This document shows positions 12,703-37,804 of a DNA stretch of 47,265 nt, in pieces. Source of the stretch: Streptosporangiales bacterium (GTDB lineage: Bacteria > Actinomycetota > Actinomycetes > Streptosporangiales > WHST01); assembly GCA_009379825.1 (NCBI GenBank), contig WHTA01000044.1:1-47265 (forward strand), written 5' to 3'. The notes under the pieces are model-generated. The model worked only from the letters and a program-made list of their open reading frames with translations. It was not told the origin of the DNA and searched no databases. Position 1 is the first letter of the stretch. Each line of letters starts with the position of its first letter. A program made the translations under genes and the position numbers.

Positions 12703-14004
12703 TTACCGGTCGACTCCGGCGGTACGCACCGCGCAGTAGAGCGCGTCGTCGTCCGTCGGGGGCACCGTGCGCAGGTCGAGCAGGCAACGGCCCTGCTCCA
12801 CGCGGCCGACCACCGGCGGCGCGGCGAGCCGCAGGGCTTCGGCGTACGACGCCGGCAGGCTCACCGCCGCGCTCGGTACGGTCACGCCCGGAGCGCCACC
12901 GCCGCCGACGACGGACTCCGACGTCACCGCGAGCACGTCCGGCAGCCCCGCCTCGGTCAGCCGGCCCACCAGCCGGTCGACCCGCGCGCGCACGTCCGCG
13001 ACCGGCGCCTCGAGCTGCGCGCGCACCGGCACCGGTGGCCCTTCGAGGGTGGCTTCGACGGCGGCCAGCGTCAACTTGTCCACCCGCAACGCGCGCGCCG
13101 ACGGGTGCCTGCGCAGCCGCTCCACCAGGGCGGCGTCGCCGAGCAGCAGGCCCGCCTGCGGTCCGCCGAGCAGCTTGTCGCCGCTCGCCGTCACCAGCGC
13201 CGCGCCGGCACGCAGCACGGTCGTGGCGTCCGGCTCGTCCGGCAGCATCGGGTGCGGCGCGAGCAGGCCGGAGCCGATGTCCACGACGACGGGGACGTCC
13301 AGACCCACCAGCTCGGGCACGTCCACCCCGGACGTGAACCCCGACACCTGGAAGTTGGACGGGTGCACCTTGAGCACGAACGCCGTACGCGGGCCGACGG
13401 CGTCGGCGTAGTCGCGCAGCGAGGTGCGGTTCGTGGTGCCCACCTCGCGCAGCCGCGCGCCTGTGCTGGCCAGCAGTTCGGGGATCCTGAACCCGTCGCC
13501 GATCTCCACCAGCTCGCCGCGGCTCACCACGATCTCGCCGTCCTGCGCGAGCACGAGTGCGCACAGCAGCAGCGCGGCCGCGTTGTTGTTCACCACGTGC
13601 ACGCCACCTGCGGCCGGCACGGCGGCGGCGAGTGCGGCCAACGCGCCCGCACCACGGCGCGCACGCCGTCCGGTGCGCAGGTCGAACTCCACGTCGGTCG
13701 GGCCGGTCACCGCGGCCATCGCGTCGCGCGCCGCGGCGGACAACGGTGCGCGCCCCAGGTTCGTGTGCACGAGCACGCCGGTGGCGTTGATCACCGGCTG
13801 CATCGCCGTCGCGTGCCCTGGCAACGCGGCGAACGCCAGCTCGGGCACCGACTCCGGGCTCACCTCACCGTGCCTGGCACGTTCCTGCATCGCCGCGACG
13901 GTCCGCTTCACCGCGGTACGCCCTAGCCGCACGGCGGCTTCGACGAACTCCGGTCGTGCCAGCACCTCGTCGGTGGCGGGAATGCGGCGCCGCGCGTCCG
14001 TCAT
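12703..14004 (-). CDS. selA: L-seryl-tRNA(Sec) selenium transferase
   Basis: SelA is a PLP enzyme that converts seryl-tRNA(Sec) to selenocysteyl-tRNA(Sec) using selenophosphate. The 433-residue product has the SelA N-terminal helical region, INATGVLVHTNLGRAPLS (about 70-88), the NNNAAALLL motif, EIGDGFRIPELL, VVVDIGSGLL, and the PLP-lysine motif SGDKLLGGPQAG, so it looks complete. It diverges from selD with a 34-base gap, as often seen for paired selenium genes, and implies that the host makes selenoproteins. One such gene lies 3 kb away. Confidence 0.93.
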   Translation of the reverse strand: MTDARRRIPATDEVLARPEFVEAAVRLGRTAVKRTVAAMQERARHGEVSPESVPELAFAALPGHATAMQPVINATGVLVHTNLGRAPLSAAARDAMAAVTGPTDVEFDLRTGRRARRGAGALAALAAAVPAAGGVHVVNNNAAALLLCALVLAQDGEIVVSRGELVEIGDGFRIPELLASTGARLREVGTTNRTSLRDYADAVGPRTAFVLKVHPSNFQVSGFTSGVDVPELVGLDVPVVVDIGSGLLAPHPMLPDEPDATTVLRAGAALVTASGDKLLGGPQAGLLLGDAALVERLRRHPSARALRVDKLTLAAVEATLEGPPVPVRAQLEAPVADVRARVDRLVGRLTEAGLPDVLAVTSESVVGGGGAPGVTVPSAAVSLPASYAEALRLAAPPVVGRVEQGRCLLDLRTVPPTDDDALYCAVRTAGVDR

Positions 14005-14038: not shown

Positions 14039-15055
14039 ATGGCCGGAAGCGAACTGTCCACCGCCCCGCGTCTGACGCAGTACGCCCACGGCGGTGGTTG
14101 CGCCTGCAAGATCCCGCCGGACGAGCTGGAGGGCATGGTCGCCGGCCTCACCGCCGGCACCCCGACGGGCGCCTTCGGTGAGCTACTCGTCGGCCTGGAC
14201 ACCGGCGACGACGCCGCGGTCATCCGGCCACCGGACGGCGGGCCTGCGCTGGTGCTGACGACCGACTTCTTCACGCCCGTCGTCGACGACCCGTACGACT
14301 GGGGTCGCATCGCCGCCACCAACGCGCTCTCCGACGTCTACGCGATGGGCGGCCGCCCGGTGGGTGCGGTCAACCTGCTCGGCTGGCCGCGCGACACGCT
14401 GCCGATGGACCTCGCCACCGAGGTGCTGCGCGGCGGGCTCGACGTCACCCGCGCCGCCGGCTGCCACCTCGCCGGCGGACACAGCGTCGACGACGTCGAG
14501 CCGAAGTACGGCCTCGCGGTCACCGGCCTGGTCGACCCCGACCTGATGCTGCGCAACGACGCCGGCCGTCCCGGCCTGCCGCTGTCGCTGACCAAGCCGC
14601 TTGGCATCGGCGTGCTCAACACCCGGCACAAGGCGACCGGCGAGGTCAGCGCCGCGGCAATCGAGGCGATGACCACGCTGAACGCGGCCGCTGCCCGCGC
14701 GGCGGTCGAAGCCGGCGTACGGTGCGCCACCGACGTGACCGGCTTCGGCCTGCTCGGCCACCTGCTGAAGCTGGTGCGGGCCAGCAACGTCGGCGCGGAG
14801 ATCGACGCGTCCGCCGTGCCGTACCTGGCTGGCGCACGCGAGGCGCTCGGCGCGGGCTACGTCAGCGGTGGCACCAAACGGAACCTGGACTGGGTACGCC
14901 CGCACGTCGACCGCTCCGCCGTGGACGAGGACGAGGCGCTGCTGCTCGCCGACGCGCAGACGTCCGGCGGCCTGCTCGTCGCCGGCGAGCTCCCGGGCGC
15001 GCCGGTCATCGGCCGGCTCACCGAACCGGGCGACGTGGCGATCACCGTGCGCTGA
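14039..15055 (+). CDS. selD: Selenide, water dikinase (selenophosphate synthetase)
   Basis: SelD makes selenophosphate from selenide and ATP, the selenium donor for SelA. The 338-residue product starts MAGSELSTAPRLTQYAHGGG and has the active-site loop GGGCACKIPPDEL, with cysteine where some SelD proteins carry selenocysteine. GDDAAVI, TTDFFTPVVDDPYDWGRIAA and LAGGHSVDD are ATP/Mg motifs of the AIRS-like fold, and ADAQTSGGLL lies near the end. Earlier in-frame starts at 14003 and 14018 exist, but 14039 gives the standard N-terminus and leaves room for a divergent promoter with selA. Confidence 0.93.
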   Translation: MAGSELSTAPRLTQYAHGGGCACKIPPDELEGMVAGLTAGTPTGAFGELLVGLDTGDDAAVIRPPDGGPALVLTTDFFTPVVDDPYDWGRIAATNALSDVYAMGGRPVGAVNLLGWPRDTLPMDLATEVLRGGLDVTRAAGCHLAGGHSVDDVEPKYGLAVTGLVDPDLMLRNDAGRPGLPLSLTKPLGIGVLNTRHKATGEVSAAAIEAMTTLNAAAARAAVEAGVRCATDVTGFGLLGHLLKLVRASNVGAEIDASAVPYLAGAREALGAGYVSGGTKRNLDWVRPHVDRSAVDEDEALLLADAQTSGGLLVAGELPGAPVIGRLTEPGDVAITVR

Positions 15056-15060
15056 CCGCA

Positions 15061-15966
15061 CTACCTGCCTGGCAGCGACTCGACCAACCGGCCAGGGGTG
15101 CCGGCGATCACCTGCCGCAGGTCGTCTTTCGGCATGCCGAGCGCCTGCAGACCACCGAGGGCTGCCGCCAGCCCGTCGACGGGCGCCGGGTTGTGCGGCT
15201 GACCGAGGTCGGAGGCGAGGTAGCACGAGCTCGCTCCCACGGCGTCGATGTCGTGCTTGATCCTGGCCAGCTCGATCGGCTCGTGGAACAGGCACGACAC
15301 GTAACAGTGCTCGATGAGCGCACCGTCAGCCGCGAGCTCGCGCTGCAGCTCCACCGGCATGGCGATGAACCCGATCGACGCGTGCGTAACGACCCTGCGC
15401 TCGATGCCGCGGCGGCTCGCCTCCGCGAACAACGCCTGCGTCTCCGGTGGGCTGAGGTGACCGGACGCCAGCACGACGTCGCGGCCGTCGAGCACGTCGA
15501 GCACGTCGTGTACGGCCGGCAGCAGCTCGCCCGCGTCGTCGAGCACGGTCAGCGCCGCCGCGCCACGGGGCAGCAGCCACGCGGTCTCGGCCGGGTCGGC
15601 GGCGTGTTCCACGAACCAGGCCGACGTCACCGTCGGCGGGAACACCCACTGCACCCCCGCTGCCAGCGCGGCCTCCACGTGCACCGGGTTCAACCCGCCG
15701 GACGGCGTGTTCAGCGCGCACGAGGCGATACAACGGAAGTCGTCGTACCACTTCTCGAGCACGTAGCCACGCCCGACGGTCGGCAGGAAGTGGTCCTTCA
15801 GCAACGCGCCCGCCATGCCGGCGGCACGGTAGTGCTCCACCAGGTCGACGACGTCCATCCGCCGCGGTCGCACGTCGGGGGCGGCGTGCACGTGCAGGTC
15901 GTACCCGCCGTGCAGCAGCTCCTCGATCCCGCTGTCGTCGACCTCGTGTGGTGGCTGCCAGCTCAT
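15061..15966 (-). CDS. DUF6282-type metal-dependent hydrolase-like protein
   Basis: This 301-residue protein looks like an amidohydrolase-fold enzyme. It has an HxH motif (GGYDLHVHAAPDVRPRRMD), LLKDHFLPTVGRGY, VVLASGHLSPPET, a THASIGF segment and SDLGQPHNPAPVDGL near the end, as in the DUF6282 family. The histidines and aspartate would bind metal. Its reaction is not known. It is the last gene of the four-gene selenoprotein operon and its ATG overlaps the Ldh-type stop (ATGA), so it should act on a product or relative of the same substrate. Confidence 0.75.
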   Translation of the reverse strand: MSWQPPHEVDDSGIEELLHGGYDLHVHAAPDVRPRRMDVVDLVEHYRAAGMAGALLKDHFLPTVGRGYVLEKWYDDFRCIASCALNTPSGGLNPVHVEAALAAGVQWVFPPTVTSAWFVEHAADPAETAWLLPRGAAALTVLDDAGELLPAVHDVLDVLDGRDVVLASGHLSPPETQALFAEASRRGIERRVVTHASIGFIAMPVELQRELAADGALIEHCYVSCLFHEPIELARIKHDIDAVGASSCYLASDLGQPHNPAPVDGLAAALGGLQALGMPKDDLRQVIAGTPGRLVESLPGR

Positions 15967-17009
15967 TCCGCCTCCGTTAACCACGTCGGTACGTGGACGC
16001 CGCACTCGGCCGCGGTTGCCCGTAGCCGCACGGTGAGCGCGTCCGACAACGGTATCCCCTCTGCCGTCCGCTGCGCCTCGACCAGCTCCTCGGGGTCGCC
16101 TGGCACCCGCACCGCGTCGACGCCTGGCGCAGTCCTGCTCCCCCGCAGCCGTTCGGCGATCGCGCCGACCTGCTGCCGGTACTCGTCGGCCGGCCCGAAC
16201 GCCTCCGCCGCCAGCGCGAGGAAGAGGTGCCCCTGGTCGCCGACGCGGCCGGCGTCGGTCAGCACCCCGACGTCGGGTCCGGTGCTGCTGCCGGCGAGCG
16301 CGCCGGTGAGCAGGTCGACGACGAGCGCGATGCCGTAACCCTTGTGCCCGCCGATCGGTTCGAGCAAGCCGTCGATAGCCGCCGCAGGATCGGTCGTCGG
16401 CCGGCCGTCGAGGTCGCGCGCCCAACCCGACGGCATGGGCTCGCCGCGCTCCTTCAGCTGCCGCACCTTGCCGAGCGCGGCGACGCTGGTCGCCATGTCC
16501 ACGACCACCGGCCGGTCGTCACCGGGCACGGCGACGCTCCACGGGTTGTTGCCCAGCAACGGCTCCGCACCACCGGTCGGCGCGATCCGCGGACTTGCGT
16601 TCGTCGCCACGATGCCGATGACACCGTCCTCGGCGGCACGCATGGTGTACGCGGCGAGCGCGCCGAGATGGTTGCCGTGCCGCACTGCGACCGCACCGAC
16701 CCCGAAGCGGTGCGCCCGTTCCACGGCAGTCTCCATGGCGCGCTCGCCGACGACCTGACCGGCACCGTGACCACCGTCGAGCACCACGACAGCGCTGTGG
16801 TCACGCACCACCCTCAGCTCGGCGGGACTACGGATGCCGCCTGCGCGCACCCGTTGCGCGTAGACCGGCAGCCTCGTGATGCCGTGCGAGTCCACACCGC
16901 GCAGGCTGGCCACGCCGAGATGCCTTGCCACGACACGGCTCTCGGACGTCTCCATGCCCGCGGCCGCGAGCACCTCCGCGGCGAAGTCGGTCAGCGCCGA
17001 CACCAGCAC
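15963..17009 (-). CDS. Ldh-family (malate/lactate/ureidoglycolate type) NAD(P) dehydrogenase
   Basis: This 348-residue oxidoreductase of the Ldh_2 family oxidises 2-hydroxy acids with NAD(P). Visible motifs are LRGVDSHGITRLPVYAQRV with the catalytic His, VRHGNHLGALAAYTMRAA, TNASPRIAPTGG, LLGNNPWSVAVP and GGHKGYGIALVVDLL near the end. The GTG at 17009 has AGGGA at good spacing; GTG codons at 17024 and 17003 are alternatives. It sits between the selenoprotein and the DUF6282 gene, so it may oxidise a hydroxy acid formed by, or fed to, the selenoprotein step. Substrate unknown. Confidence 0.85.
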   Translation of the reverse strand: MLVSALTDFAAEVLAAAGMETSESRVVARHLGVASLRGVDSHGITRLPVYAQRVRAGGIRSPAELRVVRDHSAVVVLDGGHGAGQVVGERAMETAVERAHRFGVGAVAVRHGNHLGALAAYTMRAAEDGVIGIVATNASPRIAPTGGAEPLLGNNPWSVAVPGDDRPVVVDMATSVAALGKVRQLKERGEPMPSGWARDLDGRPTTDPAAAIDGLLEPIGGHKGYGIALVVDLLTGALAGSSTGPDVGVLTDAGRVGDQGHLFLALAAEAFGPADEYRQQVGAIAERLRGSRTAPGVDAVRVPGDPEELVEAQRTAEGIPLSDALTVRLRATAAECGVHVPTWLTEAE

Positions 17010-17027
17010 ACATCGTCCCTGCACCTG

Positions 17028-17567
17028 TCACCCAACCTCGGTCAACGCAGCGGCCACGTCGGCGAAGACCGCGGAGGCAATCTCCTCGAGCTGTTCCTCG
17101 GTACGGTCCGCCAACGGGTGCTGCACAACGGCGATACGCAACTGCGGCATGCCCAACGCCGCCGCGCGGGCACGTGCGTACCCCTCGAACGGCGTCGTCA
17201 CGAACGTGACGGTCGGGATTCCTGCGCGTTCCAGGACAACGGAGTCGTGGACACTCCACGACGTGCACGAGCCTCAGTCGCCGGACGCGTTGAGCACGGC
17301 CGTCTCGCACGCGATGACCGACAGCGCAAGCACCTCTGGCATCGGTCCGGCCGCGCCGATCCCCTCGCCCTTCTGGTACAGCCGGGCCTTGGCCGAGTAC
17401 ACCCGCTCGAACCTGTCACCGAGCAGGCTCAGCAGCACCGCAGCGTTCGGCTTGCTGTTGTCGAGCAAGCCGATGCGCGCATCGGTCAACGTGGTCAACC
17501 GCGGCGCCACCGTGCCGGCGTCGGGCTCGGGCGCAAGGCCCGTGGGATCGAGGAACTCGATCGTCAT
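17028..17567 (-). CDS. UGSC-family selenoprotein with in-frame UGA (Sec98)
   Basis: Translation from the ATG at 17567 runs 97 residues to a UGA at 17276-17274, then continues in the same frame without interruption for 81 more codons to a second UGA at 17030-17028. The product is 179 residues with selenocysteine at 98 in the motif D-U-G-S-C-T, the signature of the UGSC (seleno)protein family. Before it lie RIGLLDNSKPNAAVLL and GAAGPMPEVLALSVIACETA. After it lie SVVLERAGIPTVTFVTTPFEGYARARAA and a helical end. Eleven bases after the UGA comes a SECIS-like hairpin, and selA/selD are 3 kb away. An AAGGAGGT site and ATGA overlap tie it to the upstream partner gene. Its reaction is unknown; the U-x-x-C pair suggests thiol/selenol redox chemistry. 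Confidence 0.88.
17244..17262 (-). promoter_or_regulatory. Bacterial SECIS-like hairpin
   Basis: On the minus strand, 11 bases after the UGA, GTCGTGGA pairs perfectly over 8 bp with TCCACGAC around the loop GTG. The loop begins 20 bases after the UGA and its first base is G. Stem length, distance and loop G fit what is known of bacterial SECIS elements bound by SelB. The hairpin lies inside the coding sequence, as bacterial SECIS elements do. Confidence 0.8.
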
Positions 17568-18628
17568 GGCACCTCCTTACCGTCGAGCCTTCGGGTCACC
17601 GTGCGGCTGGCGCCGAACGTGGGCACCACCATGGAGTGCCGCCCAGGACCACCCGTCACCGTGACGACGACGTTGTCCGCGGACGCGACGATCGGCACCA
17701 GGTCGTCGTCGGCCGCCGTCGCGAACGGGTCCGGCCTGATCCTGGCGAACCGCGCCCGGTTCTCCGGTGCGAGCTCCCCCGCCCGCACTCGAGCAAGCTC
17801 GAAGAGCTGCTGTGCCACCGCATCCTTGGTCAGCCCGTCCCGCGCGCACAGGGCCGCGTGTTCCGGCCCGAGCAGCACGAGCACGTCGCCGCCGAGGTAG
17901 ATGTTGTTGTTGCCCAACGTCCGCATGGTGCCGGCGACGGTGACGAGCACGCCGCGGCCGTCGGTGCTGCCGTGGTCGTTGACGTTGTGCGGCGCCTCGG
18001 CCGCGAACACGGTGACCGCACTCGCGTCGGCGTCGACCTCGTGGTCGACCCGCAGCGGCGGCCACGGGCTGGTGTCCTCGTTCTCACCGGCGACGTAGGT
18101 GAACTTGCCCGGCTGCCCGAAGGTGGCCTCGTCGCCGGTGCCCGGGATGCCCTCGCCCACGTTCAGCAGCACCAACCGCACGGCACGGCCGATCACCGCG
18201 TTGGCGCGGGTGCCCGGCCCGAAGACGCCGGCGCCGCAGTTGATGCCGAGCGCATCGACGACGGGTCCGCCGAAGACGGCAAGCGGTGCGCACGGGTGCG
18301 TCGTCGCCTGCACACCGGCGAGGTTGAAGGCGGGTTCGAGCACGGCGCGGAGGGTGGCGAGCACGGCCGGGAAGTGCGCCGGCCGGCACCCGGCGAGTAC
18401 GGCGTTGACGGCCACGCTCTGCACGTCGGCGATCCGTCCGCTCACCGGCACCGGGCCGATCCGTGTGTCGGCGGGTTCGCCGGCCGCCGCGCCCATGGCG
18501 GCGACCCGTTCGCCGGTGGGCGCGACGACGGGCAAGCCATCGCTCCAGCCGTGCGCGGCGGCGAAGTCGTCGACCTCTTCAGCAGTAGCACCCACCTGGT
18601 GCACCCGCTGGAGGTCGAGGGTAGTCAT
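17564..18628 (-). CDS. Conserved protein paired with the UGSC selenoprotein, function unknown
   Basis: This 354-residue soluble protein has no signal peptide or membrane segment. Features include VDDFAAAHGWSDGLPVVAPTGE, a Cys-containing VNAVLAGCRPAHFPAVLATL, THPCAPLAVFGGPVVDALGINCGAGVFGPGTRANAVIGRA, APHNVNDHGSTDG and a late GGPGRHSMVVPTFG. The cysteines in GCRP, HPCAP and INCGAG are candidate redox or metal ligands. It is the first gene of the selenoprotein operon and overlaps the UGSC gene by ATGA, so the two proteins probably form one complex or act in sequence. I cannot name the fold; resemblance to large UGSC partner proteins is from memory of neighbourhoods and not verified. Confidence 0.7.
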   Translation of the reverse strand: MTTLDLQRVHQVGATAEEVDDFAAAHGWSDGLPVVAPTGERVAAMGAAAGEPADTRIGPVPVSGRIADVQSVAVNAVLAGCRPAHFPAVLATLRAVLEPAFNLAGVQATTHPCAPLAVFGGPVVDALGINCGAGVFGPGTRANAVIGRAVRLVLLNVGEGIPGTGDEATFGQPGKFTYVAGENEDTSPWPPLRVDHEVDADASAVTVFAAEAPHNVNDHGSTDGRGVLVTVAGTMRTLGNNNIYLGGDVLVLLGPEHAALCARDGLTKDAVAQQLFELARVRAGELAPENRARFARIRPDPFATAADDDLVPIVASADNVVVTVTGGPGRHSMVVPTFGASRTVTRRLDGKEVP

Positions 18629-18683: not shown

Positions 18684-18712
18684 AACCTACCGACGGCGGT
18701 TACGGCTGTCAA
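18684..18712 (-). promoter_or_regulatory. Sigma70-type promoter of the selenoprotein operon
   Basis: On the minus strand TTGACA (18712-18707) is followed after 17 bases by TAGGTT (18689-18684). It overlaps the 3' end of the MFS gene and points at the four-gene selenoprotein operon. The tandem operators start right after the -10 box. Confidence 0.6.
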
Positions 18713-19895
18713 TGCGACCGAGGCCGGGCAGCACGCCGGCCGAGACCAGCAGGCCGCCCATCATCCAGAAAGCCGCACCCACGCCGACACCGGCCGCGAC
18801 CAGCCCCACGAGTGCGGGGATGGCCACCTGGCCGACGCGGTTGGCCACCATGCGCAGCCCCATCGCGGTACCCCGCAGCTCCGCCGACGTGCGTTGCGCG
18901 ATCTCGGACATGGTCAGCGGCTGCCCTACGCCGAGCGGGAACCCGGCCAGCGCCATCGCCGCGACGAGCAACACCGGCGTGTGCAGCCACGGCACCGCGG
19001 TGAGCACCACGCCGGCCACCAACACACTCAACCGCACGAGCACGGTCCTGCCGACCGCGCGCACCAACAGCGGCAGGCACAGCCGGGACAGCATGGTGCA
19101 ACCTGCCCGCACACCGAGCAGCAGGCCCACCATCCGTGCGTCGACGCCGTTCTCCTCCGCGTACGCCGGCAGGAACACGGCGATCAGGTCGACGGCGATG
19201 AACAGCGCCATGCCGACGTAGATGTACGCGGACACCCCGCGCCTGGTGAGCACGCGCCTGATCCCCGCGCCCTGGCCGACGCGCGTCTTGGCGGCGCCCG
19301 CGAGCCGCTGCCGCGGGTCGGCGGTGCGCATGCCGACCGTCGACAACGCCGCGGCGACCGCCAGCAGGCCCGCGATCACGAAGCCCGGCGCAGTGCTGAG
19401 CTGACCACTGCCGCCCGGCACTCCGGCTGCCACGGCCGTACCGACGATCGGCCCGATGATCTGGCCGAGCGAGGTGAAGATGGTGAACAGCCCGTACCTG
19501 GCGTCCTGCCGCGCAGGTGGGGAGTTGTTCGCGATGTGCGTCTGCAGTCCCATCATGGCGAGCACCTGGCCGAGACCCGTGACCGCGCACCCGATGGCGA
19601 GCGACCAGAGGTTCACCGACCAGACCATCGGCACCACGCCGACGACGAACAGCGCCGCGCCGAAGCGGACCACAGGAGGTTCGCGCCTGCGGTCCAACCA
19701 GCGCCCGGCCGGCAACGCGATGGCGACGGGCAGCAGCGAGAAGCTCGCGGCGATGACACCGACCTCGAACGAGCCGCCGTCGAGCTGCAGCACCCGGTAC
19801 GTCACCAACGGGCGTGCGACGTTGGCCGAGAACTGGATCGCGAGCGCTACGAACGCCATCCGCGCGAGCCAGCCTGGCCAGGATCGGGTCACCAT
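18687..19895 (-). CDS. MFS transporter
   Basis: This 402-residue major facilitator protein has about 12 membrane helices in two halves. The loop between helices 2 and 3 has ALPAGRWLDRRREPPVVRF, close to the MFS signature, and the second half begins near RRVLTRRGVSAYIYVGMALF. The start is the ATG at 19895 with an adjacent GTG at 19898. It diverges from the CoA-transferase genes across a region holding the shared tandem operators, so it is probably co-regulated with the catabolic island and may import a substrate or export a product. Confidence 0.85.
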   Translation of the reverse strand: MVTRSWPGWLARMAFVALAIQFSANVARPLVTYRVLQLDGGSFEVGVIAASFSLLPVAIALPAGRWLDRRREPPVVRFGAALFVVGVVPMVWSVNLWSLAIGCAVTGLGQVLAMMGLQTHIANNSPPARQDARYGLFTIFTSLGQIIGPIVGTAVAAGVPGGSGQLSTAPGFVIAGLLAVAAALSTVGMRTADPRQRLAGAAKTRVGQGAGIRRVLTRRGVSAYIYVGMALFIAVDLIAVFLPAYAEENGVDARMVGLLLGVRAGCTMLSRLCLPLLVRAVGRTVLVRLSVLVAGVVLTAVPWLHTPVLLVAAMALAGFPLGVGQPLTMSEIAQRTSAELRGTAMGLRMVANRVGQVAIPALVGLVAAGVGVGAAFWMMGGLLVSAGVLPGLGRIDSRNRRR

Positions 19896-19929
19896 CACCT
19901 CGTTGACCGGGAACAGTTGATCTCGATAG

Positions 19930-19965
19930 TGTGCGAATACTGTACTAGTGTTTGGATAGTGAACA
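19930..19965. promoter_or_regulatory. Tandem 17-bp operators between MFS and CoA-transferase genes
   Basis: TGTGCGAATACTGTACT (19930-19946) and TGTTTGGATAGTGAACA (19949-19965) stand 19 bp apart, the same period as at the selenoprotein operon. The second is an inverted repeat (TGTTT/GAACA with one mismatch). A possible rightward promoter is TTGACC at 19903-19908 with ATAGTG about 17 bases later. The sites could control both divergent genes, including the iclR gene two genes downstream. Confidence 0.6.
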
Positions 19966-19993
19966 CACATCCGAAGGACTACGAGCGGAGAAG

Positions 19994-20803
19994 ATGGCCA
20001 GGATCCGCACCCTGATCGACGGGATCGGCGAACTCGTGCGCGACGGCGACACCGTCGCACTCGAAGGTTTCACCCACCTGATCCCGACCGCCGCCGCACA
20101 CGAGGTGATCAGGCAGCGCAAGCGCGACCTGACCCTCGTCCGGATGACCCCGGACATCGTGTACGACCAGCTCATCGGCGCCGGCTGCGCGAGCGCGCTG
20201 GTGTTCTCCTGGGGCGGCAACCCCGGCGTCGGCTCGCTGCACAGGTTCAGGGACGCCATCGAGAACTCCTGGCCGCGCCCGCTCACCGTCGACGAGCACA
20301 GCCATGCCGGCATGGCGAACAGGTACGTCGCCGGGGCGAGCGGCCTGCCGTTCGCCGTACTGCGCGGCTACCTCGGCACCGGGCTGGCCGATCAGAACCC
20401 GAACATCAGGACCGTCGACTGCCCGTTCACCGGTGAGCGGCTCGCCGCCGTACCTGCCCTGCGGCCGGACGTCACCATCGTGCACGCGCAACGCGCCGAC
20501 CGCGCGGGCAACGTGCAGATGTGGGGACTCACGGGGATCCAGAAGGAGGCGGTGCTCGCCGCCGAACGCTCGCTGGTCACCGTCGAGGAGGCCGTCGACA
20601 CGCTGACCCCCATGCCGGACCAGGTGATCCTGCCTTCGTGGGCGGTGACCGCGGTCGCCGCCGCACCCGGTGGCGCGCGCCCCTCGTACGCGCACGGCTA
20701 CTACGAACGCGACAACGACGCCTACCGCGAGTGGAGCGAGATCAGCGCCGACCGCGAGCGGTTCACCGACTGGCTGCAAGCCACCGTCGGAGTCGCCACA
20801 TGA
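19994..20803 (+). CDS. CoA-transferase family I, alpha subunit
   Basis: This 269-residue subunit is of the glutaconate / 3-oxoacid CoA-transferase type. It starts MARIRTLIDGIGELVRDGDTVALEGF behind a CGGAGAAG site and has FTHLIPTAAAHEVIRQ, a VFSWGGNPGVGSLHRFRDAIE segment and VTIVHAQRADRAGNVQMWG, which is typical of alpha subunits. It overlaps the beta-subunit start (ATGA). With a working beta subunit it would move CoA from a donor such as succinyl-CoA onto an acid entering or leaving the pathway. The acid is not known. Confidence 0.85.
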   Translation: MARIRTLIDGIGELVRDGDTVALEGFTHLIPTAAAHEVIRQRKRDLTLVRMTPDIVYDQLIGAGCASALVFSWGGNPGVGSLHRFRDAIENSWPRPLTVDEHSHAGMANRYVAGASGLPFAVLRGYLGTGLADQNPNIRTVDCPFTGERLAAVPALRPDVTIVHAQRADRAGNVQMWGLTGIQKEAVLAAERSLVTVEEAVDTLTPMPDQVILPSWAVTAVAAAPGGARPSYAHGYYERDNDAYREWSEISADRERFTDWLQATVGVAT

Positions 20804-21594: not shown

Positions 21595-22404
21595 ATGGCA
21601 GCACCGGAGGATCCCTCCGAGGAGAACGCGAGCGACCCGCGAGGGGTGCACTTCATCCAGTCGCTGGAACGCGGCCTCAACGTGATCAAGGCGTTCAGCG
21701 CGGACACCCCCGAGCTGACCCTCAGCGAAGTCGCCCGCGCCACCGAGCTCACCCGGGCGGCCGCGCGCCGTTTCCTGCTCACCCTGGTCGACCTGGGCTA
21801 CGTACGCAGCGACGGCAGGCAGTTCTCGCTCACCCCGCGCGTACTCGACCTCGGCTACGCCTACCTGTCCTCGCTGTCGCTGCCCGAGGTCGCCGAACCG
21901 CACCTGGAGCGGCTGGCCGGTGAGATCAAGGAGTCTGCGTCCGTCTCCGTGCTCGACGGCGACGACATCATCTACGTCGCGCGGGTGCCCACGTCGCGCA
22001 TCATGACCGTCGCGATCAACGTCGGCACCAGGTTCCCCGCGTACGCGACGTCGATGGGCCGCGTGCTGCTGGCCGGACTGCCCGAGGCCGAGCTCGACGA
22101 CTACCTCGAGCGCACCGACCGCGGTCAGCTCACCGGCAAGACCACCACGTCCGCCAGCACCCTGCGCGGCGAACTGCGCAAGGTGCGCGACCAGGGGTGG
22201 GCGCTCGTCGACCAGGAGCTGGAGGACGGGCTGCGTTCCATCGCCGCACCGATCCACGACCACACCGGCCAGGTGATCGCGGCGGCGAACATCTCCACGG
22301 CGGCGAGCCGTACCCCGGTGGCGAAGATGCGCCGCGACCTGCTCCCGCCGCTGCTCGACGCCACCAAGCGGATCGAGAGCGACCTGCGCGCCGCCCGCGC
22401 CTAG
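21595..22404 (+). CDS. IclR-family transcriptional regulator
   Basis: This 269-residue regulator has a winged-helix domain at about 18-80 (FIQSLERGLNVIKAFSADTPELTLSEVA, then LTRAAARRFLLTLVDLGYV) and an IclR ligand domain after it (SASVSVLDGDDIIYVARVP, GTRFPAYATSMGRVLLAGL, VDQELEDGLRSIAAPI). It resembles the PcaR/PobR branch that governs aromatic and beta-ketoadipate catabolism. It follows the CoA-transferase genes with a GAAGGAG site and ends in a 4-base convergent overlap. IclR proteins bind as tetramers to paired sites, which fits the tandem operators seen at four promoters here, one of them its own operon's. Confidence 0.9.
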   Translation: MAAPEDPSEENASDPRGVHFIQSLERGLNVIKAFSADTPELTLSEVARATELTRAAARRFLLTLVDLGYVRSDGRQFSLTPRVLDLGYAYLSSLSLPEVAEPHLERLAGEIKESASVSVLDGDDIIYVARVPTSRIMTVAINVGTRFPAYATSMGRVLLAGLPEAELDDYLERTDRGQLTGKTTTSASTLRGELRKVRDQGWALVDQELEDGLRSIAAPIHDHTGQVIAAANISTAASRTPVAKMRRDLLPPLLDATKRIESDLRAARA

Positions 22405-22817
22405 GCCGGGCCGAACCGGGCGAGCGACCAGCCGGCCTCCGACGAGATCCGCAGCCGCACCCGCTGGTCGATGCGCAACTGTTGCTTCGACTCCTCGTCG
22501 TCGAACACCAGGTTGGTGATCAGCCGCGGGCCTTCGGTCAGCTCCACCACGGCGACGTAGTACGGCACCTTGTCGGCGAAGTACGCGTGGAACGCCCGGT
22601 GGTAGACGACCCAACTGATCAACATCCCCGTGCCCGCGCTCACCTCGAACCGCCAGTCGGGCAACAGGCACTGCGGGCACTCCTCCCGCGGCGGCAGCCA
22701 CGCGTGCCCGCACGACTGGCATCGCTGGAAACGCAGCTCGCCCGCGGCGAGACCGTCCCAGTACGGCTTGGTCAGGTCGGTCACCGGCGGGGCGGGGAAG
22801 TCGGCCAACGTGGTCAC
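22401..22817 (-). CDS. Zn-ribbon OB-fold (DUF35) acyl-CoA-binding protein
   Basis: This 138-residue protein has the rubredoxin-like zinc ribbon CQSCGHAWLPPREECPQC (four Cys, about residues 33-50) followed by an OB-fold (SWVVYHRAFHAYFADKVPYYVAVVELTEG). DUF35 proteins partner with thiolase-fold enzymes, for example Ltp2-type aldolases of steroid side-chain breakdown. It follows the thiolase-like gene by one base and uses a GTG start. It should stabilise that enzyme and help bind its CoA substrate. Confidence 0.88.
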   Translation of the reverse strand: MTTLADFPAPPVTDLTKPYWDGLAAGELRFQRCQSCGHAWLPPREECPQCLLPDWRFEVSAGTGMLISWVVYHRAFHAYFADKVPYYVAVVELTEGPRLITNLVFDDEESKQQLRIDQRVRLRISSEAGWSLARFGPA

Positions 22818-22818
22818 C

Positions 22819-23955
22819 TCAGTTCCCCAGGATCATCGAGGCGTGCGTGTGCATGGCGCCTCCTTGGTTGGTCACCAACGTGTGCTTTGCGCCAGGCACC
22901 TGGTTCACCGACGTGCCTCGCATCTGGCGTACGGCCTCGATCACCAGCTGCATACCCGGCGTGCCCGTCTCGGCGAGCAGCCCGCCGCTGGTGTTCACCG
23001 GCAGCTGGCCACCCAGCTCCAACGCGCCGTCCTCGACGAAGCGGCCACCGCTACCCTTCGGGCAGAACCCGTAGTCCTCCAACGTCATCAGCACGGTGAT
23101 GGTGAAGCAGTCGTACAGTTGCGCGACGTCGATGTCGGACGGCTTCAGGCCACTGGCCTCGAACACCCGCGCGCCGGCCACCGATGCGGCCGTCGTGGTG
23201 AGGTCCGGCCGCTGCGCGACCTCCCACGACGTCTGCCCGTGCCCGAACCCGAGCACGGGCACCGGAGCCGGCACCCCAAGGGCTCTCGCCCGACGCTCGG
23301 TCGTCACGACCACGGCGGCACCGGAATCCGAGATCAGGCAGCAGTCGTTGCGACGCAACGGTTCCACGACGTACGGGTCGGCCTGGTACTCATCGAGCGT
23401 CAACGGCTTGCGCAGGTGGGCGCTCGGGTTGTCCGCGCCGTGTTTGCGGCACGCCATGGCGATGGCACCGAGCTGGTCGGTCGTCGTGCCGTACTGCTGG
23501 ATGTGCCGCTGCGCGATCATCGCGTACCCGGAGAGCACGCCGAACCAGCCGTACGGCGCCTCGGCGGACGCCAGCGGGCGCTCGTAGGCGCTCCTTGTAC
23601 CAGTGCGGGGGTTGTCGCCGTAACTGACCAGCGCCACCTCGCAGTGCCCGGCCTCGATGGCCGCGGCGGCGAGACAGATCAGCGTGACGTTGGACGCGCC
23701 GCCCTGGTCCCACAGGCCGCCCATCCGCGGCTGCAGGCCGAGCGCCTCGGCGAGCTTCTGCCCGAAGAAGCGCTCGAAGCCGGAGGTGATCGACTTGGTG
23801 AAGACGGCGTCCACCGCAGACTTCTCGATGTTCGCGTCGCCCAGCGCCTCGCGGCACGCCTCCACGTTCAGCGACGTGATCGACCTGCCGGGCAGCTTGC
23901 CGTACTCGGTGTGCCCGATGCCCGCGATGACGATCCTGTCGTCGGGGCCGCTCAT
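22819..23955 (-). CDS. Thiolase-fold (SCP2/Ltp2-like) protein lacking thiolase catalytic residues
   Basis: This 378-residue thiolase-fold protein belongs to the SCPx/Ltp group (IVIAGIGHTEYGKLPGRS, then WDQGGASNVTLICLAAAAIEAG, and VNTSGGLLAETGTPGMQLV). The usual nucleophilic Cys of NCSTG-like motifs is replaced by GGAS, the GHPxGATG histidine is absent, and the C-terminal CxG Cys is missing (NQGGAMHTHASM). With its DUF35 partner it fits better as a retro-aldolase (Ltp2-like), splitting a beta-hydroxyacyl-CoA, than as a thiolase. It overlaps the CaiB-type stop by ATGA. Confidence 0.82.
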   Translation of the reverse strand: MSGPDDRIVIAGIGHTEYGKLPGRSITSLNVEACREALGDANIEKSAVDAVFTKSITSGFERFFGQKLAEALGLQPRMGGLWDQGGASNVTLICLAAAAIEAGHCEVALVSYGDNPRTGTRSAYERPLASAEAPYGWFGVLSGYAMIAQRHIQQYGTTTDQLGAIAMACRKHGADNPSAHLRKPLTLDEYQADPYVVEPLRRNDCCLISDSGAAVVVTTERRARALGVPAPVPVLGFGHGQTSWEVAQRPDLTTTAASVAGARVFEASGLKPSDIDVAQLYDCFTITVLMTLEDYGFCPKGSGGRFVEDGALELGGQLPVNTSGGLLAETGTPGMQLVIEAVRQMRGTSVNQVPGAKHTLVTNQGGAMHTHASMILGN

Positions 23956-25154
23956 ATGACCCCCGCGGCCGCGAACTCGTCGAGAGTCGTCCGGTCGAGG
24001 CCGAGCCAGTCGCCGTACACCTGCTCGTTGTCCTGGCCGAGCGCGCCGCTCGGGCGCGGCTTCTTCCTGCCGACGTCCTCGAGCAGGATCGGGCTGTGCG
24101 GCACGGTCACCGTGCCGAGCTCGGGATGCTCGATGTCCTGCAGCATGCCGCGTGCGTAGTGGTGCGGGTCCGTTGTCACCTCGCTGAGCGTCTGCACCGG
24201 GGCGACGGGCACACCCACGTCGCGCAGCTTGGCGAAGACGTCCTCCTTGCCGAGCGTGCCCACCCAGTCGCCGACCAGCTCGTCGATGGCGTCGATGTGC
24301 GCCACCCGGTCCTTGGTCTGCGCATAGCGCGGGTCGTCGACGAGGTCGTGTCTGCCCATCACCTCGAGCAGCTTGCGCCAGTGGCCGTCGCTCTCACAGA
24401 TGATGCCGACGTGCCCGTCCTTCGCGGCGTACACGTTGTACGGCACCACCGAGTAACCGCCGTGCCTGTTGCCGCTGCGGAAGCCGTCCACGCCGGAGGA
24501 GAAGAAGTGGCCCAGGTTCGACATCATCGACGCGTACACGGCCTCGTGCATGGAGATCTCCACGACCGCGCCCCCTCCGGTGCGCTCCCTGCGGTACAGC
24601 GCGGTGAGGATGCCGCCGTACAGGTGGATGCCGCCGAAGAAGTCGCAGATCGCCGGGCCGGACTTCACCGGCGGCCCGTCGGGGAAACCCGTCACGCCGA
24701 GCACGCCTGAGATCGCCTGCACAGAGAGGTCCATCGCCGGGTACTCCCGGTACGGCCCGGACCGCCCGAAGCCGGACGACTGCGCGTACACCAACCGCGG
24801 GTTGATGGCACGGAGTACGTCGGCGCCGACGCCGAGCCGCTCCATCACGCCGGGACGGTAGTTCTCGACCAGCACGTCGGCCTTCGCGACCAGCTGCTTG
24901 AGCAGGTCCTTACCGCGGTCGTCCTTCAGGTTGAGCGTGACGAAGTTCTTGTTGGAGTGCAGGTTCGCGAACGCGTACCGCGGGCCACCGACCTGCCCAC
25001 GCACCCGCAGGTGCTCGCCGTGTACGGGCTCGACCTTGATGACCGTCGCGCCGCCGAGCGCGAGCAACAGCGTCGCGTACGGTGCGGCATAGATCTGCCC
25101 GAGGTCGATCACGACCAACCCGGCGAGGGGCTCCTTGCCTTCGGTACCAGCCAA
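23952..25154 (-). CDS. CaiB/BaiF-type (family III) CoA-transferase
   Basis: This 400-residue family III CoA-transferase starts at TTG (25154) behind GGAAGG. Motifs are LAGLVVIDLGQIYAAPYATLLLALGGATVIKVEP, NKNFVTLNLKDDRGKDLLKQLVAKADVLVENYRPGVMERLG, and the catalytic aspartate in YPAMDLSVQAISGVLG. It activates an acid to its CoA thioester without ATP, taking CoA from another thioester. Lying in the seven-gene leftward operon, it probably starts degradation of the imported compound, with the family I CoA-transferase acting elsewhere in the pathway. Confidence 0.9.
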   Translation of the reverse strand: MAGTEGKEPLAGLVVIDLGQIYAAPYATLLLALGGATVIKVEPVHGEHLRVRGQVGGPRYAFANLHSNKNFVTLNLKDDRGKDLLKQLVAKADVLVENYRPGVMERLGVGADVLRAINPRLVYAQSSGFGRSGPYREYPAMDLSVQAISGVLGVTGFPDGPPVKSGPAICDFFGGIHLYGGILTALYRRERTGGGAVVEISMHEAVYASMMSNLGHFFSSGVDGFRSGNRHGGYSVVPYNVYAAKDGHVGIICESDGHWRKLLEVMGRHDLVDDPRYAQTKDRVAHIDAIDELVGDWVGTLGKEDVFAKLRDVGVPVAPVQTLSEVTTDPHHYARGMLQDIEHPELGTVTVPHSPILLEDVGRKKPRPSGALGQDNEQVYGDWLGLDRTTLDEFAAAGVI

Positions 25155-35759: not shown

Positions 35760-36242
35760 GTGACGGCCGATCGGAGCAACGAGTCATTCGACGACAGGGT
35801 ACGTGCGGTCGTCGCTGCCCACCGCGGCGAACGCGGTGCGCTGCTGCCCGTCCTGCACGGCATCCAGGACGAGTTCGGGCACGTCGACCCCGCCGTGGTG
35901 CCGATCCTCGCCGAGGAGCTCAACCTCTCCCGCGCGGACGTGCACGGAGTGGTCACCTTCTACCACGACTTCCGCGACCGCCCGCCCGGCCAGAGCACCG
36001 TACGCATCTGCCGCGCGGAGGCCTGCCAGTCGGTCGGCGCCGAGGCGCTGGTGGCGCACGCCAGGCGCTCCCTGGGCGTCGAGCTCGGTGACACCACCGC
36101 CGACGGGCGGGTGACCGTCGACCAGGTGTTCTGCCTGGGCAACTGCGCGCTCGGCCCCTCGGTACAGGTCGACGGCACCATGTACGGCCGGGTGGACGCC
36201 GCCCGCTTCGACTCCCTCGTCGGCAAGGCGGTGGCGCCATGA
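35760..36242 (+). CDS. fdsG: NAD-dependent formate dehydrogenase gamma subunit
   Basis: This 160-residue NuoE-like subunit carries one [2Fe-2S] cluster on four cysteines: CRAEAC (two Cys five apart) and CLGNC (two Cys four apart), in RICRAEACQSVGAEAL and QVFCLGNCALGPSVQV. The N-terminal helical bundle HRGERGALLPVLHGIQDEFGHVD is typical. GTG codons at 35748 and 35760 both have purine-rich leaders; I chose 35760. It passes electrons between FdsB and FdsA and overlaps fdsB by ATGA. Confidence 0.9.
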   Translation: MTADRSNESFDDRVRAVVAAHRGERGALLPVLHGIQDEFGHVDPAVVPILAEELNLSRADVHGVVTFYHDFRDRPPGQSTVRICRAEACQSVGAEALVAHARRSLGVELGDTTADGRVTVDQVFCLGNCALGPSVQVDGTMYGRVDAARFDSLVGKAVAP

Positions 36243-37804
36243 CCACGGTCTACGTCCCGCGCGACTCGTCCGCCCGCTCGGTCGGTGCCGACGAGGTCGC
36301 AGCCGCCGTCGAACGCGCCGCCGCCGCTGCCGGCCGCGACGTCAAGGTCGTACGCAACGGCAGCCGCGGCATGCTCTGGCTGGAGCCGCTGGTCGAGGTC
36401 GTCGTCGACGGCGTACGCGTCGGGTACGGCCCGGTCGCCCCCGGCGACGTGGACGACCTGGTCGCCGCGGGCATGCTCGACGGCGCCGAGCACGCACTGC
36501 GCCTCGGACCGGTCGAGGAGCTACCCTGGCTACGCGACCAGACCAGGCTCACCTTCGCCAGGGTCGGCGTCATCGACCCGCTTTCGCTGGACGACTACGT
36601 CGCCGCCGGTGGGCTCGACGGGCTCCGTACGGCACTGTCCATGGCACCGGCGGACGTGGTGGCCGCGGTGACCGACTCCGGGCTGCGCGGCCGCGGCGGT
36701 GCCGGCTTCCCCGCCGGCATCAAGTGGAAGACCGTACTCGACACCCCAGGTGAGCTGAAGTTCATCTGCTGCAACGCCGACGAGGGCGACAGCGGCACGT
36801 TCGCCGACCGGATGCTGATGGAAGGCGACCCGTTCACGCTCATCGAGGGCATGGCGATCTCCGCACACGCCGTCGGCGCCACCGAGGGCTACATCTACAT
36901 CAGGTCCGAGTACCCCGACGCCGTCGCCACACTGCAGCGGGCGATCGATATCGCGTACGCGCGCGGGGTGCTCGGCGAACGCATCCTCGACTCCGAGCTG
37001 CACTTCGACCTCTACGTACGGGTGGGCGCGGGCGCGTACATCTGCGGCGAAGAGACGTCGATGCTGGAGAGCCTCGAGGGCAAGCGCGGCATGATCAGGT
37101 ACAAGCCGCCGCTGCCCGCCATCGAGGGGTTGTTCGGCAAGCCGACAGTGGTCAACAACGTGCTGACCCTGGGCAGCGTGCCGACGATCATGGCCGAGGG
37201 TGCCGCCGCGTACGCCGAGCTCGGGGTCGAGCGTTCGCGCGGCACCCAGGTCTTCCAGCTGGCCGGCAACATCGCCCACGGCGGGGTGTTCGAGACCGCG
37301 TTCGGCATCACCCTGGGCGAGCTGGTCAACGGCTACGGCGGCGGCACCAGGTCGGGCCGGCCGGTGAAGGCCGTACAGGTCGGCGGCCCGCTCGGCTCGT
37401 ACGTGCCGACGTCGCGGTTCGACCTGCCGATGGACTACGAGGCGTTCGCCGCCGCGGACGCGATGATCGGGCACGGCGGCGTCGTGGTGTTCGACGACAC
37501 CGCCGACATGGCGAAGCAGGCGCGGTTCGCCATGGAGTTCTGCGCCGAGGAGTCGTGCGGCAAGTGCACACCGTGCCGGGTGGGCTCGGTGCGCGGTGTC
37601 GAGGTGATCGACAAGATCGTCGCCGGCGAGAACCGCGACGAGAACCTGGTGCTGCTAGACGACCTCTGCGGCCTGATGACCGAGGGGTCGCTGTGCGCGA
37701 TGGGCGGGCTCACCCCGATGCCCGTGAAGAGCGCGCTCGAGAACTTCGAGGAAGACTTCCTCGGCAACGGCCGAACCGAATCGGTGACGGAGGCCAATCC
37801 ATGA
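36239..37804 (+). CDS. fdsB: NAD-dependent formate dehydrogenase beta subunit
   Basis: This 521-residue subunit is NuoF-like. The first 110 residues are a thioredoxin-like domain. Then come GLRGRGGAGFPAGIKW (NADH/FMN loop), CNADEGDSGTFADR, GAGAYICGEETSMLESLEG and the [4Fe-4S] motif ESCGKCTPCRVGS with a fourth Cys in DDLCGLM. It holds FMN and reduces NAD with electrons from formate. It overlaps both neighbours, as expected for a tightly coupled fds operon. Confidence 0.93.
   Translation: MTTVYVPRDSSARSVGADEVAAAVERAAAAAGRDVKVVRNGSRGMLWLEPLVEVVVDGVRVGYGPVAPGDVDDLVAAGMLDGAEHALRLGPVEELPWLRDQTRLTFARVGVIDPLSLDDYVAAGGLDGLRTALSMAPADVVAAVTDSGLRGRGGAGFPAGIKWKTVLDTPGELKFICCNADEGDSGTFADRMLMEGDPFTLIEGMAISAHAVGATEGYIYIRSEYPDAVATLQRAIDIAYARGVLGERILDSELHFDLYVRVGAGAYICGEETSMLESLEGKRGMIRYKPPLPAIEGLFGKPTVVNNVLTLGSVPTIMAEGAAAYAELGVERSRGTQVFQLAGNIAHGGVFETAFGITLGELVNGYGGGTRSGRPVKAVQVGGPLGSYVPTSRFDLPMDYEAFAAADAMIGHGGVVVFDDTADMAKQARFAMEFCAEESCGKCTPCRVGSVRGVEVIDKIVAGENRDENLVLLDDLCGLMTEGSLCAMGGLTPMPVKSALENFEEDFLGNGRTESVTEANP

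Follow-up and report, generated by a model that had tools for sequence, protein, structure and literature searches.

The window analysed here is the whole 47,265-nt stretch of a Streptosporangiales genome, and on its minus strand it carries a tightly packed series of genes in the order MFS transporter, partner protein, UGSC family selenoprotein, Ldh_2 dehydrogenase and DUF6282 protein. The transporter ORF (18687..20060; PF07690, 130 bits), whose start codon is uncertain, is separated by 58 bp from the partner gene downstream (17564..18628, 354 aa), which in turn overlaps the start of the UGSC gene by 4 nt (ATGA). The UGSC gene (17028..17567) encodes a predicted product of 179 aa with Sec at residue 98; it starts with ATG at 17567-17565, reaches an in-frame UGA at 17276-17274 and continues for 81 sense codons up to a natural stop TGA at 17030-17028. 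Next downstream follows the gene of a malate/L-lactate/sulfolactate-type dehydrogenase (15963..17024; PF02615, 388 bits), the end of which is overlapped by 4 nt by the DUF6282 gene (15061..15966; PF19799, 186 bits). Beyond these lie selD, encoding a selenophosphate synthetase of the Cys type (GGGCACK; plus strand, about 14039..15055, read by eye from the translation and with an uncertain start), and selA, encoding selenocysteine synthase (minus strand, 12703..14004; TIGR00474, 411 bits against a cut-off of 267.9). The preliminary description of this DNA had placed both genes 3 kb away from the UGSC gene; the distances are 3.0 kb for selA and 2.0 kb for selD.

Reading frame and family assignment

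In the preliminary description the UGA was read as the Sec position of a D-U-G-S-C-T motif with the frame continuing for 81 codons beyond it, and both points were borne out. GC at the third codon position was 0.91 before the TGA and 0.81 after it. Against the same-genus gene L127 the dN/dS was 0.282 upstream of the TGA (97 codons) and 0.286 downstream of it (79 codons), with amino-acid identities of 73% and 75%, respectively. We concluded that translation and purifying selection extend beyond the UGA. The read-through protein matched the Pfam model PF24696 (UGSC) with 155.7 bits (cut-off 25 bits; E 1.6e-45) over residues 5-176, spanning the UGA, and the NCBIfam model NF041046, named 'UGSC family (seleno)protein', with 125.0 bits, a score equal to its cut-off (125).

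Homologues aligned across the UGA continued past it, with Cys or Sec at codon 98. Among 92 UGSC domains, which came from two kinds of search and in part were fetched by a Cys-containing peptide pattern, the key codon was TGA in 39, TGC in 42 and TGT in 10 (together 91 of the 92), the single ATG belonging to a divergent match; TAA or TAG was found in none of them. The UGA occurred independently at the same codon in a same-genus genome and in many others, and in surveys of the phylum and of relatives by Pfam profile every in-frame stop listed in UGSC was TGA. Positions C/U98, G99 and C101 were invariant among 37 aligned UGSC members. On the comparative evidence the gene is almost certainly a genuine selenoprotein gene, its UGA at codon 98 being decoded as Sec with the aid of the hairpin described below.

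The gene is a further member of an already-known family and not of a new one, since Zhang and Gladyshev described the family in 2008, with the same U-G-S-C motif and the same alternation of Sec and Cys as seen here (PMC2398784). Literature searches under the names 'UGSC family' and 'DUF6282' found no papers. It had been expected that a standard gene caller would split or truncate the gene; a mechanical ORF caller does stop at the UGA, but an up-to-date annotation pipeline knows the family because of the 2008 description and the Pfam and NCBIfam models, the second of which carries a (seleno)protein name. The first interpretation of the gene is supported, while the degree of surprise attached to it was overstated.

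SECIS hairpin and selenocysteine machinery

Bacterial SECIS elements are hairpins located just after the UGA and inside the coding region, with a G among the first two loop nucleotides. Directly past the UGA of the UGSC gene, and likewise within the coding sequence, we found a hairpin of this type at 17244..17262 (minus strand), GUCGUGGA-GUG-UCCACGAC, which forms a perfect 8-bp stem with the loop GUG or alternatively a 7-bp stem with the loop AGUGU. The stem begins 11 nt and the loop 19 nt from the UGA, the loop carries its G early, and nothing unusual compared with bacterial SECIS elements was seen in the hairpin sequence. The folding energy of the region was unremarkable in its context of 70% GC DNA. 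Single-sequence folding energy was uninformative as evidence for a SECIS in high-GC coding DNA, and a comparative test was used instead.

For the comparison we assembled 26 distinct UGA genes whose flanking codons specify Ser and Asp. The stem was paired at 167 of 182 positions, whereas 500 runs of synonymous-codon randomisation gave 119 on average and at most 136. Among 15 Cys genes the number of paired positions was 77 of 105, which is inside the randomised range (maximum 83). The serine codon in the loop was AGT in 24 of the 26 UGA genes but in none of the 15 Cys genes. The covariation score of the hairpin was 0.196 versus 0.073, was not reached in any of 500 shuffles, and was far higher than the scores of sliding controls. 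Of 25 sequences, two of which had been added by eye because of their pairing, 15 had C-G and 10 had G-C as the loop-closing pair, and it was broken in none; TGC went together with a G-ending codon and TGG with a C-ending one, so that codon choice on one side tracks that on the other. Counts of this kind are inflated by relatedness. Because synonymous and compensatory changes keep the pairing, the hairpin looks as if it has been selected as RNA in the UGA genes. The 8-bp hairpin with a G-starting loop at SECIS distance, noticed at first in the single sequence, is thus backed by comparative evidence for a SECIS.

The genome (6.15 Mb, 169 contigs) was searched for the remaining Sec genes. A tRNA-Sec with anticodon TCA (78.3 bits) was found on contig C101, adjoined by SelB (275 bits), so that selB and selC are both present, side by side. 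The Sec set is complete, with tRNA-Sec, SelA and SelB recognised by profile and SelD by reading the sequence. The two observations named beforehand as contrary to a selenoprotein, homologues that all end at the UGA and a genome lacking selB or selC, were thus not made. A tRNA-Sec of at least 60 bits was detected in 25 of 25 genomes with a UGA-type UGSC gene versus 10 of 20 others (Fisher P 6e-5, indicative only because the genomes were hand-chosen). A reading in which the UGA is no Sec codon but a normal stop, a mutation in a pseudogene or an error of sequencing, and in which the product consists of the first 97 residues, would agree with the mechanical ORF call and with the unremarkable folding energy taken alone, but is extremely improbable in view of the independent UGA codons in other genomes, the purifying selection past the UGA, the selection on the hairpin and the full Sec machinery.

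Similar to selA and selD in the window, the tRNA-Sec gene lies about 1.5 to 5 kb from a UGSC gene in three other genomes (G396, contig C87; G123, C39; G313, C3). A genome of the same order, G398, contained ten UGSC matches (L125, L128, L130-L137), eight of them with an in-frame TGA, an unusual expansion of a selenoprotein family.

Partner protein and gene neighbourhood

A homologue of the partner protein (~350 aa) was found, fused or nearby, at all 49 UGSC loci examined, which include three from this genome. In 24 of the 49 the partner was fused C-terminally to UGSC; otherwise it was mostly directly adjacent, upstream or downstream. Loci fetched later had the same partner cluster in nearly all cases. 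Thus in the loci examined UGSC is obligately tied to the partner by fusion or adjacency, and with high probability the two proteins act as a two-subunit unit. A fusion of UGSC to a second domain, 'Unknown_1', was already noticed in 2008 (PMC2398784); likened by description only, this is plausibly the same domain as the partner.

A Pfam/NCBIfam search with the partner and 41 homologues gave no match save for one marginal chance match. The structure model of the partner had a pLDDT of 90.6, and a structure search with it returned no convincing match; class I fumarases and Toblerone-fold hydrolases were considered and rejected (TM below 0.35, high rmsd). On comparison the partner was also found to be unrelated to GrdE.

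Four copies of the partner are present in this genome; three lie next to UGSC genes, and the fourth is divergent from the pair on contig C1. At C1:35381-38128 (L018, L153) we found another UGSC gene of the UGA type that has a partner of its own, as well as the divergent extra partner paralogue, which by eye is followed by NifU-like and isopropylmalate/tartrate-type dehydrogenase-like genes. An apparent in-frame TGA in a partner paralogue on contig C1 was on reading its natural stop.

The same-genus genome likewise has kept an Ldh_2 gene next to UGSC, and so has Tropicimonas (L050), where a fused UGSC gene is followed by Ldh_2 and a 2-hydroxyacid dehydrogenase. DUF6282 was also found near UGSC and partner at four haloarchaeal loci and one clostridial locus. 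Around other UGSC loci we observed Amidohydro_2, ADH, SDR, CoA-transferase III and acyl-CoA dehydrogenase genes together with LysR, GntR and IclR regulators; amidohydrolase-like and hydroxyacid dehydrogenase genes recur, and the neighbouring genes otherwise vary. This context suggests the catabolism of a small carboxylic-acid-type compound.

Two further gene groups were observed in the window. At 21595-25154, beside the UGSC operon, an IclR regulator, a ChsH2-like OB protein, a thiolase-like protein and a CoA-transferase III form a CoA-thioester catabolic cluster. At 36239-40620 NuoF-like and molybdopterin-type formate-dehydrogenase-like genes stand in tandem; the large formate-dehydrogenase-like gene is open without an in-frame TGA and is therefore presumably a Cys form.

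Predicted fold, relation to GrdB/PrdB and proposed reaction

The AlphaFold2 model of the UGSC protein (pLDDT 94.3, pTM 0.87) contained strand 31-36, helix 42-57, strand 60-65, helix 78-87, strand 90-96, helix 99-114, strand 119-124, helix 125-137, strand 144-148 and helix 157-176. By this order, a strictly alternating (beta-alpha)5, Sec98 would come after the third strand and just before the third helix begins. Flavodoxins, WrbA, CheY and B12-binding-type domains were the best structure matches; no single one stood out as a close relative, and there were no thioredoxins among the matches listed. When solved structures were searched by sequence with UGSC and with the partner, nothing meaningful came up. 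The thioredoxin topology, in which two adjacent strands have no helix between them, was looked for in this high-confidence model and was not present. The predicted fold is hence flavodoxin-like Rossmannoid and not that of thioredoxin, which argues against the published fold of the family: it has been listed, with no function given, among proteins with a Trx fold (PMC2398784, 2008; PMC13188914, a 2026 review).

If that listing and the U-x-x-C redox motif were taken as the guide, UGSC would be a thioredoxin- or peroxiredoxin-like thiol oxidoreductase that serves redox defence and cleaves no substrate. Such a role appears improbable to us, given the alternating fold of the model, the obligate ~350-aa partner, and neighbours of catabolic type with their regulators.

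A different relationship emerged from profile comparison. The UGSC profile was aligned by hhalign with the C-terminus of GrdB/PrdB over residues 77-178 with Sec on Sec (probability 94.6%, score 60.8). As controls, the reversed profile scored 19.0, the best of 60 column shuffles 18.4 and shuffled UGSC no more than 17.1. Masking of the Sec motif left the probability at 84%; it was 18% with residues 111-121 masked, and the signal was gone with residues 96-121 masked. The signal is about 95 residues long and leans on residues 96-121. Pfam GRDB (PF07355) did not match the UGSC protein at E up to 10; this model apparently ends at the Sec codon and so would cover only part of the shared domain. From these alignments we consider it quite likely that the UGSC domain is distantly related to the C-terminal domain of GrdB/PrdB that carries the Sec. 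Since Pfam GRDB does not match UGSC, the relation is one of probable homology and not of membership. A solved GrdB structure was sought by sequence and none was found.

The U-x-x-C motif is common to UGSC and PrdB-like proteins; canonical GrdB has U-G-T-G. GrdB and PrdB also work within multi-subunit enzymes. UGSC differs in that it is without the N-terminal domain of GrdB and has a partner unrelated to GrdE; the GrdE-type pyruvoyl partner (PF09338) had no match in the genome. A further difference from GrdB/PrdB is that UGSC extends to aerobes and haloarchaea. Sphingomonas and other aerobes, like haloarchaea, have Cys homologues, and the chemistry of the anaerobic glycine and proline reductases is not known from such organisms.

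Taken as a whole, the explanation we favour, and regard as rather probable, is an enzyme of Sec domain and partner that is related to GrdB/PrdB and acts reductively. UGSC and partner would together be a Sec/Cys reductase of two subunits that acts on small substrates of the carboxylic-acid type, in which the Sec selenolate would attack a substrate held by the partner and a C-X bond would be cleaved reductively. Sec98 would then be trapped as a Se-S bridge with Cys101 of the U-x-x-C motif and be re-reduced by a thiol system. A course of this kind is assumed for D-proline and glycine reductase. The product would feed a catabolic operon of hydroxyacid dehydrogenase/amidohydrolase type.

This reductase mechanism is a best-supported guess, and for the reductive reaction, inferred as it is, we see the chances as about even. 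Points that speak against the favoured explanation are the dependence of the GrdB/PrdB signal on residues 96-121, the missing matches to Pfam GRDB and to a GrdE-type partner, the Cys homologues of aerobes and haloarchaea, the lack of a convincing structure match for the partner and the varying gene neighbours. Its main rival is a non-reductive Sec/Cys enzyme: the same two subunits, with Sec or Cys as the covalent nucleophile of a hydrolase, lyase or racemase and no net reduction. In its favour, a nucleophile placed at a helix N-terminus of a Rossmannoid domain would suit covalent catalysis, aerobes commonly have Cys forms, amidohydrolase-type genes recur nearby, and the partner shows weak similarity both to cyclic amide hydrolases of the Toblerone fold and to class I fumarases. 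The invariant second Cys, C101, points instead to a redox pair and the fold matches of the partner are poor (TM below 0.35), which leaves this rival rather unlikely, though well ahead of the thiol oxidoreductase. We tentatively suggest, at slightly less than even odds, that the pair stands for a new class of two-subunit Sec/Cys reductases, in which the active-site domain is of the GrdB/PrdB type and the substrate subunit is non-pyruvoyl, and which would serve aerobe catabolism in actinomycetes, proteobacteria and haloarchaea.

Compared with the published family and its Trx-like fold, what is new here is the differing predicted fold, the partner at all loci examined and the probable link to GrdB/PrdB, together a first concrete lead to the job of UGSC. 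A Sec domain tied to glycine/proline reductase and joined to a partner amounts to a concrete two-protein enzyme, open to purification and assay.

A Pfam GRDB scan of the genome detected a further UGA gene, PrdB-like with the motif U-P-V-C, on contig C18:29637-30068 (L066:1249-2160, minus strand); most relatives in the phylum have U-P-x-C or U-L-x-C. Ending apparently at the Sec codon, the Pfam model would miss the C-terminus of its product, which is probably another selenoprotein of the same genome. Divergent UGA-type UGSC relatives were also found with the altered motifs U-D-G-C, U-G-S-C-M-P and U-S-T-C (L120, L136 and L137), and these could bridge UGSC to GrdB/PrdB.
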